A stretch of 64,000 nucleotides of DNA from Candidatus Eisenbacteria bacterium. Lineage in GTDB: Bacteria > Eisenbacteria > RBG-16-71-46 > CAIMUX01 > JAHJDP01. The notes beneath the pieces are model-generated. The model was not told the DNA's origin. It saw only the letters and a list, made by a program, of their open reading frames with translations, and ran no database searches. Shown piece by piece: positions 54,474-59,422 of the stretch. The DNA lies in assembly GCA_018831195.1 (NCBI GenBank), contig JAHJDP010000077.1, forward strand, positions 62,001-126,000, given 5' to 3'. Position 1 is the stretch's first letter. Every line of letters starts with the position of its first letter. A program made the translations under genes and the position numbers.

Positions 54474-55250
54474 TTATCCTCTTCTGCTCTGAGGCCACTC
54501 CCTGATCTGCAGATACCCCGGCGTCAGCAGCCCCTGCCCCATCTTCTTGAAGAAGAATGGTATGGCAACGGCAATGCATTGATTGCAAATATCATGCGCC
54601 CAGTCTGGGTGCATCGGGCGTGCACCGGGACCTGTCTCGCCGCCGGCGATGACCCAATCCAGGCCTTGTCCTCCCTCGCCATGAAGCCCTCTTACAACAG
54701 CGTGGTGGGGCGGAACTCCATTCGGCGCGAGGAAGAACCGACGCAGGTCCATAGTCCCAAGCAACGGCTCACAGCTCACAAACCGAATAGCGGCAGGAGT
54801 ATCCAGCAGGATCGGGATTCGTTCATCGGCAGCCTTCTGATTCTCCGCTGTAACCCCAAGCCAGAGATGCTTGAATGGCCCAGCATTGAATTGCTCGGCG
54901 GAGCAAAACTCGCGCATCCGTTCCGGGCGTTTGGTTAATATCTGATATGTATGATGCGATGCACGCGCCATTATTAGAAACACCTCAACAATAAATTCCC
55001 ACGGGACATCCTCATGAAATAAATCGCCCATCGAACAGACGAAAACCATCCGCGGCTTTCTCCTATGCAGAGGTTCTTCCAGCCGCTCCGGATGAAGTGT
55101 CACCTTGAACGGCTCATCCCTCGGATACCCAAACCGGCCGGCAAGCCTCTTTGCCATCCGTTCCGCATAACAGTTCTTACAGCCCACGCTGATCTTTGTG
55201 CACCCCGTCACCGGGTTCCACGTCTCATTTGTCCACTCGATCTTTGTCAT
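54474..55250 (-). CDS. DUF5131 (phage Gp37/Gp68) family protein
   Basis: A 258-residue protein with the complete DUF5131 look: IEWTNETWNPVTGCTKIS, then VGCKNCYAERMAKRL, FVCSMGDLFH, YQILTKRPERM, WLGVTAENQ, FVSCEPLLG and WVIAGGETGPGARPM. The Cys-x7-Cys-x2-Cys cluster suggests an iron-sulfur radical SAM-like fold. The family is frequent in phages and mobile elements; its substrate is unknown. Start overlaps the previous gene by ATGA. Confidence 0.88.
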   Translation of the reverse strand: MTKIEWTNETWNPVTGCTKISVGCKNCYAERMAKRLAGRFGYPRDEPFKVTLHPERLEEPLHRRKPRMVFVCSMGDLFHEDVPWEFIVEVFLIMARASHHTYQILTKRPERMREFCSAEQFNAGPFKHLWLGVTAENQKAADERIPILLDTPAAIRFVSCEPLLGTMDLRRFFLAPNGVPPHHAVVRGLHGEGGQGLDWVIAGGETGPGARPMHPDWAHDICNQCIAVAIPFFFKKMGQGLLTPGYLQIREWPQSRRG

Positions 55251-55854: not shown

Positions 55855-56149
55855 CCCCAGCCTCCTGTTTTGGAATCTCAACCCATGAATAACCACAGCT
55901 ATTACATTCCCCTAAATTAACAAGGGGGCCATTCGGCCCATCTTCCGAAAGACGGACATTCTTGTACATGATCACACAGGTTGAAGCGCATCGGACACAG
56001 ACAAGGGTCTCATCCATCTGGATATCGAATTTAGACATATCCTTCACAAGTGCAGAATATGGTATAGCAAGGGATCGGGCGATATAGGACAAGTGCTTTT
56101 TAATATCGTATGAAAAGTCATTATTCGGAAATCGTGGGTCAAATATCAT
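55847..56149 (-). CDS. Phage zinc-ribbon protein
   Basis: A 100-residue protein. Helical N-terminal half (FSYDIKKHLSYIARSLAIPY); C-terminal half has four Cys in two pairs (CVRCAST and CNSCGYSW), a zinc ribbon. It overlaps the next gene by 8 nt. It may bind nucleic acid or another protein. Confidence 0.65.
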   Translation of the reverse strand: MIFDPRFPNNDFSYDIKKHLSYIARSLAIPYSALVKDMSKFDIQMDETLVCVRCASTCVIMYKNVRLSEDGPNGPLVNLGECNSCGYSWVEIPKQEAGDG

Positions 56150-56153
56150 ATCA

Positions 56154-56417
56154 TCACCAATCTTGCCTTAAGCGAAGGATCCTCTCAGCCGCTTCATCAC
56201 CGGTGGCGCATTGTCCGGCTACAAAGGCGGCTGCTTCCAGGGCATAGATGATCAGTTGTTGTTCTGAATCGCGTGAAGCCCTAGAAGCCGCTCGTCTCTT
56301 CACATTCCACTCAGCGCGCAGCGCATCCACCCGATCTGAAGATGGCGGAGATGTCCCCTTCGGTCGTTGCCTGGGTTCTCCTGGTTGGAGATTGGTTCTG
56401 AATCTTACATCGCCCAT
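56154..56417 (-). CDS. Small phage early protein
   Basis: An 87-residue helical protein with basic N-terminus and a C-terminal helix (QQLIIYALEAAAFVAGQCAT). The start at 56417 overlaps the replication protein stop (ATGACATG context). Position right after the replication gene is that of a lambda P-like helper, but no motif proves it. Confidence 0.55.
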   Translation of the reverse strand: MGDVRFRTNLQPGEPRQRPKGTSPPSSDRVDALRAEWNVKRRAASRASRDSEQQLIIYALEAAAFVAGQCATGDEAAERILRLRQDW

Positions 56418-56418
56418 G

Positions 56419-57960
56419 TCATGCCCCCTTTGGCTTTTGATGTTCCTTGGCCAACTCATCCATCCACTGCCTCAGCTCCCCCTGTGTCGCTGTCTTCCCA
56501 ACCGGCACTGATCCGAGGTCATGGCGCCATCTCTCCCAAATCTCAGCGAAACAGAGAGCCCTAAATTTCGGGCCCCCTGATCCCCGCGCCAATTTTTGGC
56601 CGGTCGGACAATCACAGAAACAGATCGCCGATGCAGGCGGGCTGCCGTTTGAACTGAAAACCGGTATCTTCAGCATCCCACTTGGTTTTTCCGGAGGATC
56701 CCCGCACCGCCGGCAGGGCGCCGGCTTCCTGGACTTCCTGGAGTTCTCCCGGGCCTTTGAGATCAGGAACTCGATCTGATCCCGGCTCCCGAGAATGGAA
56801 GACAAGCGGGCAATGATCTTTCCCTTTCCATCCTGGCCTTCTGGGTTCTTTCCCTGGTGCCAAGACGAAAACCCCCAGCCCTCGAGAGCTTCAAACACTT
56901 CCTCCTTCGTGGAGTGCTTCAACGCCTCCCGGATGAGCGTCCTCCGCTTTGGCGTTAGTTTCGTTTCTGCAGGGTCCAGGCCTGTGGCTTTAACCCAATG
57001 CAAAAAAACACCCAGCTCCTCGAGCGATGTGGAATCCGACAGAATTTGATCTGGTTTTTTTCCGCAGTGCTGGTTTCTTTCGCTGCCTGGAGTTTTTTCT
57101 CCCGGGGCTGAATGATTTCCGCCTGGGGGTTTTTCTTTCTCCTGGCCCGGATGGTTTTCCTGGGAACGGGAGCATGTCGGTCCATCCGTTCGCGGAAGAG
57201 TGCAGGTCTCGCCGGCCCTCGGGATTTCTTTCCCCGGTGGTTCGCTCGGAGGCACCGGCTTCAAAATCACCGCGGCGGGCGGAGCGGTAATCTCCGCCTC
57301 CCCCTCACACTCCCCCTCCTGTTTCTTTTCCCTATTCTTATCCCTATCCCTATCCCTATCCTGTTCCGCCAACGTTCCCTGTAGCGTTCCAGGAACGTTC
57401 CTGGAACCTTCCGCCAACGTTCCATGTAACGTTCCGGGAACGTTCCCGAAACCTTCCGGCAACGTTATGGCTAACGTCTCCAAATACCGAGCTCTGAAGT
57501 CCTCACTGAACCGCTCTCCCTTTTTTGTCAGCATCGTATCCAATTTAGAGGCAATAAGTTGGATGGCGTACGTCTTCAGGTCGCAGTCCGGGATTTGATC
57601 AATGTACGGGAACCAACTCTTGACCTTGTTGGGGTTGTACGGCCGATTGCATTCCCGCTCGATCTCGTCGGGAAGGAAGATGACGCGATTCTCCCAATCA
57701 GCTATCGCCATTCCACTGTTTTGTAACTCTTCAAAGACGTTCATGAAACGTTCCCGGTAACGTTCCCCGAACGTTTCAAGCCAGTCCAGATCCTCGCAGA
57801 TGGAAGCGATGCCAGCCGAGAAAAGTCCAGGCGTTGCCGATGAACACGGACCCGTCTGGAGATAGAGATACAGAGTTTGGGCATTGGGTTCCGGCTTTGA
57901 TAACGCTCGGAAGTTTTTAGAACGCCATTGCCCCGATTCGATTTTCCGATGAATACCCAT
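56419..57960 (-). CDS. Phage replication protein (O-like, with Pro/Glu-rich middle)
   Basis: A 513-residue protein. Residues about 10-165 resemble N-terminal winged-helix domains of phage replication initiators (GIHRKIESGQWRSKNFRALS, then NAQTLYLYLQTGP). Residues 165-200 hold two copies of a phrase NVPGTL(H/Q)GTLAE, then a disordered Asp/Arg/Glu/Pro-rich stretch up to about 330. The C-terminus (about 330-513) has a helical domain (LGVFLHWVKATGLDPAET) and a Cys cluster (PCRRCGDPP and CFCDCPTG). The repeats are encoded by the iteron-like DNA at 57371-57766. The ATG at 57960 has GGGGGCGTG before it. Confidence 0.68.
   Translation of the reverse strand: MGIHRKIESGQWRSKNFRALSKPEPNAQTLYLYLQTGPCSSATPGLFSAGIASICEDLDWLETFGERYRERFMNVFEELQNSGMAIADWENRVIFLPDEIERECNRPYNPNKVKSWFPYIDQIPDCDLKTYAIQLIASKLDTMLTKKGERFSEDFRARYLETLAITLPEGFGNVPGTLHGTLAEGSRNVPGTLQGTLAEQDRDRDRDKNREKKQEGECEGEAEITAPPAAVILKPVPPSEPPGKEIPRAGETCTLPRTDGPTCSRSQENHPGQEKEKPPGGNHSAPGEKTPGSERNQHCGKKPDQILSDSTSLEELGVFLHWVKATGLDPAETKLTPKRRTLIREALKHSTKEEVFEALEGWGFSSWHQGKNPEGQDGKGKIIARLSSILGSRDQIEFLISKARENSRKSRKPAPCRRCGDPPEKPSGMLKIPVFSSNGSPPASAICFCDCPTGQKLARGSGGPKFRALCFAEIWERWRHDLGSVPVGKTATQGELRQWMDELAKEHQKPKGA
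57371..57766. repeat. Iteron-like repeats inside the replication gene (possible origin)
   Basis: The octamer AACGTTCC occurs at 57371, 57394, 57416, 57428, 57439, 57747 and 57759, with near copies at 57383 and 57770. Several are part of the larger palindromes GGAACGTTCC and GGGAACGTTCCC. The group of five lies within 76 bp. In lambda the replication origin consists of iterons inside the O gene, the same arrangement. Confidence 0.55.
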
Positions 57961-58090
57961 CACGCCCCCAGCATGTTTTGAAGATTGTGTGGCCGAAACC
58001 GCCTGTAAGGCCTCAGGAGACACGAACGGTGCCAAAGACGACCCATGGCACCTGATTGGGGATGAGATGCCGCGCCATCCCTGCGAGATC

Positions 58091-58381
58091 TCATGAAAGC
58101 CCCCTTGCTCTCCCCTGCCGTGCTTTGGATTTCCCGTTTCTGCGATTGACCTTTTCAACGTCCTTGAGATGACGCTCCCACCGCCCGGGGTAGCAGAGTC
58201 TCATCCTTTTGATGCACCGGCTCATCCGAGCTCGCCAATCCTCAATGGATGTGGTTAATATTTCCGCGTCGCAGCCGGCGCATCCCGGCAACCCGTCATT
58301 CGGCCCCTGGCATACGTCTCGATCCCTCACCCAGCACTTGGGTCGGGTATGAGCTGGGAATTTGAAAAGCCGCTTATCCAT
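58091..58381 (-). CDS. Small Cys-rich phage protein
   Basis: A 96-residue basic protein with four clustered Cys (CWVRDRDVCQGPNDGLPGCA, then GCDAEIL), likely a zinc-binding HNH-like or ribbon fold, and an Arg/Lys-rich end. The start at 58381 overlaps the previous gene. It lies upstream of the replication gene by about 130 bp. Confidence 0.55.
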   Translation of the reverse strand: MDKRLFKFPAHTRPKCWVRDRDVCQGPNDGLPGCAGCDAEILTTSIEDWRARMSRCIKRMRLCYPGRWERHLKDVEKVNRRNGKSKARQGRARGLS

Positions 58382-59351
58382 GGGCATCAGCACTCGCTGT
58401 CAACGTCAACTCCGGAAAGTCAGGGATGATGCGATGCGCCAACGGATGACCGGGCTCCCAAGCCCAGGTGATACAGGCGCCCACTCGATTGGCGTGGAAC
58501 ATGGCTTGCCTGAGAAGCGTTTCCCAATACTCCTGGGAAAAAACCTCCCGGCGCACCACCTCGAAGAAAGAGAGACTCAAGGGTGATTGTTTCACATCGT
58601 CAGGGGACAGCTTTGACAGCACCGGAGCGGCGAGATTTTCCCTATACCAACCGGGGCCGCCCCATTCCTCAGAATCCCACCATTGTTTCCACCGGCCGCC
58701 GGCGGCGCGCTGAGGAGGATTCTCAAACTTCACGAGATCCCATTGCGTCCGGAGCCAATTCTTATCGAGCATGTACTGGGAGCCGGCTTGGCATCCCATG
58801 AGAAGATCCCTGGAATCGCCGATCAGGCGGAGGGCCTTGGCGAATCGGCATGTATTGTTATGCCAATCAGAAGGGCTGAATTGCGAAGGATCGGCACCCT
58901 TCCACATCCATATGGGATTGGTATAGAGCGCCTCCAACATGTAACCATCGAAAAAACCCTTCCAGCGATCGGCGTGATCGGCAACCGCATCAATCAGGTA
59001 GTCGACATAGCTTTGATCTTCAAACCGCGCCAACCAATAATGCCCACCATACGACCGCCGGCCGGTGAACCACTCCGGGTGACTGGAGGCGGCTTTGAAG
59101 CTCAGCTGGTAATTTAGATCCCAGACCAGGTCGTTTGGATTGCGCCACTGAATGAATTCGAGTGGGATCAGGACATCGAAATTAATGATCTGAAGGCGGA
59201 CCTGGTCAGGGTTGCGAGCCTTCATCTCCGCATAGTGATCCGGCCGAACGACGTTGCCGAGAACGAGATCGAATTTCGAGATGCGGTCCTTCTCCTCCTC
59301 CGTCGCGCGATCGTAGGGCACTCCGGATCCAATATAGACTGCCGTCTTCAT
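58374..59351 (-). CDS. Putative glycoside-hydrolase-like (TIM barrel) protein
   Basis: A 325-residue protein with many Trp and Tyr and a barrel-like pattern: FDLVLGNVVRPDHYAEMK, then IINFDVLIPLEF, then GFFDGYMLEALY near residue 152, then WDLVKFENPP, and ACITWAWEPGHPL near the end. The order FDG-Y-E followed by later Glu resembles hypothetical glycosyl hydrolase (GHL15-type) proteins. It has no signal peptide. The start at 59351 follows GAGGAGAAA. Found among early phage genes, its role is unclear. Confidence 0.5.
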   Translation of the reverse strand: MKTAVYIGSGVPYDRATEEEKDRISKFDLVLGNVVRPDHYAEMKARNPDQVRLQIINFDVLIPLEFIQWRNPNDLVWDLNYQLSFKAASSHPEWFTGRRSYGGHYWLARFEDQSYVDYLIDAVADHADRWKGFFDGYMLEALYTNPIWMWKGADPSQFSPSDWHNNTCRFAKALRLIGDSRDLLMGCQAGSQYMLDKNWLRTQWDLVKFENPPQRAAGGRWKQWWDSEEWGGPGWYRENLAAPVLSKLSPDDVKQSPLSLSFFEVVRREVFSQEYWETLLRQAMFHANRVGACITWAWEPGHPLAHRIIPDFPELTLTASADAHG

Positions 59352-59422
59352 TTCTTTCTCCTCGTGTTGAAAGTTATAAGGGGCGCCATCCCTGGCGTGA
59401 TCACCATCCATGGAGCAGACAT

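Follow-up and report, generated by a model that had tools for sequence, protein, structure and literature searches.

A prophage in the window (the whole 64-kb stretch of DNA that was analysed) very probably carries its replication origin inside its own initiator gene, as a two-part array of iterons together with an unwinding element. An origin at this place had been put forward in the initial annotation and the sequence supports it well, with DNA repeats that are read in three frames, the same layout in relatives and an easily melted tract. The features concerned are, in coordinates of the window:

56419..57963, minus strand: initiator gene, an ORF of 514 aa starting at GTG 57963 or ATG 57960, encoding an N-terminal winged helix, a linker and a C-terminal part that weakly resembles phage replication-initiation proteins
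57670..57891, minus strand: winged-helix domain, residues 25-98
57718..57783, minus strand: codons of predicted helix 61-82, placed by DSSP of the structure model, with a recognition role suggested by winged-helix topology
57736..57775, minus strand: iteron cluster 2, sites 57770-57775, 57759-57764, 57747-57752 and 57736-57741 (the last with one mismatch)
57371..57478, minus strand: iteron cluster 1 (linker), ten sites starting at 57473, 57461, 57450, 57439, 57428, 57416, 57405, 57394, 57383 and 57371, those at 57473, 57450, 57405 and 57383 with one mismatch
57386..57452: larger inverted repeats, arms 57386-57410 and 57428-57452
57328..57358, minus strand: hexamer tract (TAGGGA)n, candidate unwinding element, read as DRDRDRDKNRE

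The prophage around the initiator gene has a portal of the lambda family and a terminase of the GpA type. Its protein matches no Pfam family at E<=0.1, and its PHROG profile matches are weak (phrog_25711, 1.8e-07; phrog_1701, a DnaD-like helicase loader, 0.0014; phrog_16167, 0.02), the N-terminal domain being the part that matches the phrog_1701 / phrog_25711 family of phage initiators. By tblastn the protein matches the annotated 'protein O' of Citrobacter phage Chris1 (1e-15), and also the annotated 'primosomal protein' of Actinobacillus phage pPE4; in Chris1 the relative is followed by an annotated replication P gene, and relative to both phages an insertion of 7 residues lies at the predicted recognition helix of the initiator. 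GC skew had been suggested as a check on the origin, and there is no switch at the site of the array. Just upstream of the initiator gene is a 345-residue ORF (58374-59411, minus strand) with no Pfam or PHROG match, and a DUF5131 gene (phrog_2045; 54474-55250, minus strand) lies between the initiator and terminase genes.

The repeat AACGTTCC has nine matches on the two strands of the window, all of them within this one minus-strand gene, compared to a mean of 1.75 and a maximum of 5 in 100 dinucleotide-shuffled versions of the window. Seven of the nine are at 57371-57446, the number that had been counted in the initial annotation, with two of these being the reverse-strand halves of overlapping palindromes, and the remaining two are at 57747-57766. 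The larger palindromes that were also reported are real, and they arise because palindromic units are evenly spaced. The core AACGTT occurs 13 times in the window and nine of these are in the initiator gene, where 4000 synonymous-codon shuffles, which leave the protein and the codon counts unchanged, give a mean of 1.92 and a maximum of 7. Within the linker array there are six exact cores (shuffled mean 1.00, maximum 4), whilst cluster 2 taken alone is weaker, with three against 0.78, a count reached by 71 of the 4000 shuffles.

Allowing one mismatch gives 14 sites, four within the DNA-binding domain and ten in the linker that follows it, with gaps of 11, 12 and 11 in cluster 2 and of 12, 11, 11, 11, 12, 11, 11, 11 and 12 in cluster 1, and 263 nt separating the two clusters. 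The reading frames of the sites run 2, 1, 1, 0 in cluster 2 and 2, 2, 1, 0, 2, 2, 1, 0, 2, 2 in cluster 1, such that one DNA word encodes NVP, GTL, ITL, ETF, ERY, ERF and NVF. As the sites are read in all three frames, the repeat unit is the DNA and not the peptide. The repeated peptide phrase that had been described is present in the linker group only (NVPGTL.GTLAE), where the unit of 45 nt equals four sites of 11-12 bp, and the peptide repeats because these four sites sum to a multiple of three; the second group does not share it, encoding ETFGERYRERFMNV in other frames.

Relatives were collected by five protein scans and one DNA-pattern scan, giving 107 distinct genes including this one; L206 is not counted in this set, nor are the contig duplicates L161, L163 and L165. 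The genes come from proteobacterial, spirochaete and Desulfovibrio genomes among others. Scans with this single domain found no relative in viral and genome contig collections and alignment queries were needed, and in a phylum search of 47 genomes the one genome with a match was the gene's own. The PHROG matches of the relatives range from 1e-16 to 1e-29, with four (L084, L039, L016, L008) matching both phrog_1701 and phrog_25711; initiators of these two families have the same N-terminal domain as here, although this gene matches them weakly. A blind search on the commonest 6-mer, which has little power, placed 5 of 76 distinct genes above all 60 of their shuffles, this gene included. The DNA-pattern scan gave 71 loci, of which 24 were inspected; seven of those were scanned against PHROGs and all seven match replication-initiation or helicase-loader families, with an eighth contig (L057, the same as L134) also recovered by the protein scan. 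Chance, or protein repeats of an unrelated kind, may account for many of the 71.

Four loci found by the DNA pattern alone (L055, L030, L022, L061) have AACGTT arrays in initiators of other PHROG families; the arrays follow the N-terminal domain and often precede a short tract of repeats, which is possibly convergent use of one word. Two further initiator matches (L202, L203) are on a single contig, JAHFTW010000006.1, labelled as a Thermoplasmata archaeon MAG, which perhaps reflects the mis-binning of a bacterial phage, or else an element of an unusual kind.

The hexamer tract adjoins the linker array and is at the 97th percentile of low duplex stability within 56001-58400; averaged over 79 relatives, the stability profile also has its minimum at the tract. 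Its general form after the linker array is (YARRRR)n, with CAGGAA in most relatives; a stricter reading as a YAG repeat was dropped, as L166 and L123 use CAAGAG. Runs of two or more QE are encoded in 60 of 76 distinct genes, with QEQEQE in most relatives, whilst in L153, L202 and L117 a CAGGAA-like tract is read in another frame to give GTG or GTA peptides, and in L022, of another initiator family, the tract has a period of 7. Amongst the 34 genes without a QE run of three, the tract is found in seven (expectation 3.27, maximum 5 of 200). In three of the seven the peptide is still Q/E/K, and another frame is used in L153, L202, L022 and this gene. The tract is read here as the putative unwinding element. 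In five relatives (L160, L134, L175, L176, L177) the place of the tract appears by eye to be pyrimidine-rich on the coding strand, as if inverted; melting, or the first loading of helicase, might then proceed in the opposite direction.

There is a substantial, if less than even, chance that the tract is instead a functionless microsatellite, expanded by slippage close to the origin. Amongst glutamine codons CAG accounts for 372 of 380 inside QE runs and 362 of 557 outside them, and as slippage would yield the same homogeneous codons it is a live alternative for the QE genes. Slippage fits less well with the recurrence of the tract at the same place with other peptides and in other frames, as in this gene, L153, L202 and L117, or with that place having the lowest mean stability in the relatives.

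The two positions occupied by the iterons are conserved. The first scan gave 75 distinct genes, in which AAGSCTT, a palindrome, occurs 351 times compared to 91.3 expected, with 151 just after the conserved E-E-L-x-W, the position of cluster 2 (33.5 expected), and 185 in the linker (50.1 expected); elsewhere there is one before, none between and 14 after (5.1 expected). The motif is at the first position in 70 of these relatives, at least twice in the linker in 59, and at both in 57, and the two clusters of this window lie at the same two places. The second group of repeats had been regarded as an addition to a lambda-like layout, which is contradicted by these 57 genes, and it is better described as a conserved half of the array. 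The search of relatives for the array, as the initial annotation had advised, finds the same two positions occupied, usually with other palindromes.

The motif itself differs between genes and is alike at both positions within a gene, being AACGTT in L016 and L166, AACSGTT in L115 and L162, GATGSCATC in L164 and AAGGGTT in L168. Across 19 representatives with less than 55% identity, 121 7-mers are common to cluster 2 and the gene's own linker, compared to 49.1 after synonymous shuffling (maximum 79, n=300), whilst six control pairs of regions were within about two standard deviations of expectation; the sharing within this gene taken singly was reached by 31 of 300 shuffles. Permuting cluster-linker pairs between genes was also tried and was found to be inflated by base composition, as other pairs of regions were raised too, link-C for example at 88 against 47.2, and the synonymous-shuffle version is the one that is trusted. 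The exceptions are L134, with AACGTT in the linker only and no cluster 2, and L205, with no 7-mer in common.

It is also conceivable, albeit unlikely, that cluster 1 and the tract suffice as the origin, and that the codons of cluster 2 are iteron-like by ancestry without a function. Lambda manages with one cluster, and the sites of cluster 2 are few (three or four), partly degenerate and absent from some genes; set against this are the more than fourfold excess of AAGSCTT at that position and the manner in which the motif of cluster 2 tracks that of the gene's own linker.

Iterons inside an initiator gene are a known kind of origin, as in lambda ori and SPP1 oriL. The lambda ori in gene O, along with its versions in Stx phages, is like the array here in having palindromic iterons within the initiator gene, downstream of the DNA-binding part, with an easily melted tract next to them, whereas its four 18-bp iterons form a single cluster with steps of 20-24 bp, compared to two clusters at 11-12 bp steps here; it also lacks a hexamer tract, and its melted tract differs in composition. 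In Stx phages iterons and residues are added together (PMC7466680). The likeness to lambda that had been claimed, with a different repeat, holds for the layout and does not extend to the protein, as Phage_rep_O (PF04492) gives no match to the initiator in a library in which lambda O scores 5.7e-36, and hhalign of the initiator with lambda O gives a probability of 0.1 and no similarity; by the tests run the initiator is not lambda O, and the likeness appears to be one of layout only.

SPP1 oriL, within gene 38 that encodes the replisome organizer G38P, also has repeats in the initiator gene beside an unwinding element, there direct repeats and an AT-rich element (PMC6316719). SPP1 has a second, distant origin, oriR, whereas the second cluster here is in the same gene, a comparison that concerns layout and not the G38P protein. 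In iteron plasmids with initiators of the RepA-type winged helix the iterons are in phase with the DNA helix beside a melting element (PMC5043065), and they are mostly direct repeats bound by monomers, in contrast to the palindromes inside coding sequence found here. Among the papers listed in searches of an open literature library, none dealt with this family, with iterons in recognition-helix codons or such a two-part array, or with the hexamer tract.

Palindrome arrays also act as operators and the initiator may autoregulate, thus the sites could be bound by the initiator or a phage repressor to regulate transcription through the gene and not the start of replication. This is improbable given that the array is within the gene and tied to initiator families, with an easily melted tract directly after it as in lambda and SPP1.

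AAGSCTT is found in both clusters in 83 of the 107 genes, where the sites of cluster 2 are in frame 1 in 177 of 177 cases and those of the linker in frame 0 in 192 of 216, and the frame of cluster 2 differs from that of the linker in 78 of the 83. Neither peptide conservation nor gene conversion of coding units gives such a pattern. That the linker and helix merely need repeated residues (GTL, EAF, KPS), with the likeness of the DNA following, is hardly credible: the linker here does repeat its phrase, and KPS recurs every 12 bp in a single frame in many relatives, yet the sites of this gene are in three frames, the two clusters differ in frame in nearly all of these 83 genes and the counts exceed those of synonymous shuffles. 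Octamers explained by peptide repeats alone, and broken by synonymous changes in relatives, were not what was found: in the relatives either the peptide differs while the DNA motif persists, or the motif is exchanged at both positions together.

The structure model of residues 1-202 (pLDDT 81.7, pTM 0.75) has the secondary structure of a winged helix by DSSP (H28-37, E47-49, H52-58, H61-82, E87-89, E94-96). This fold is widespread, and a match to it indicates no function. The best structural matches of the model are winged helices of the CRP type (Z 8.2, rmsd 1.9, 63 aligned), which rank above a weak resemblance to a solved Rep/initiator chain, 5kbj_C (Z 6.3, rmsd 5.6, 76 aligned). Foldseek with the winged-helix model gave no match at E<=0.001, and the domain profile matched only two PDB sequences, DHT03 proteins A and B, over a short stretch.

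From the topology of the model helix 61-82, the third of the winged helix, is the expected recognition helix, and cluster 2 is codons 63-76 inside it. If cluster 2 is bound by the initiator, then the helix that does the reading would be written in its own binding sites. An iteron of 12 bp spans four codons, which is roughly a single turn of a protein helix. In every motif class the peptide dictated by the iteron is the one present in the helix, with a 4-residue step in EAF.KAF, EGFGKGF and EDAIRDAI, and ETFRERFGNV across frames. It is tentatively suggested, at rather less than even confidence, that the origin and its reader may be the same DNA, with half of the iteron array forming the codons of the recognition helix. 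A change of iteron would then rewrite the helix, the 12-bp step becoming a 4-residue step, phages could diversify the specificity of their origins with site and protein kept matched, and the dipeptide runs (QE, DR, PN) would be incidental to an unwinding element built of hexamers.

In the two-part origin proposed here the winged helix of the initiator would bind the palindromic iterons, whose spacing is close to a helical turn, both within the recognition-helix codons and in the linker that immediately follows the domain, the two arrays being separated by about 260 bp. Binding at both arrays may loop or wrap the DNA and melt the adjoining purine-rich tract, where the C-terminal part of the initiator may help to load the host helicase.

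If this is true, it would provide a sequence rule for finding origins in a large and mostly unstudied group of temperate phages, and the odd dipeptide repeats in their initiators would be explained. Were cluster 2 to be bound, a binding site and the helix that reads it would be encoded by the same bases, and the relatives would offer natural matched pairs of iteron and recognition helix from which a specificity code could be derived.
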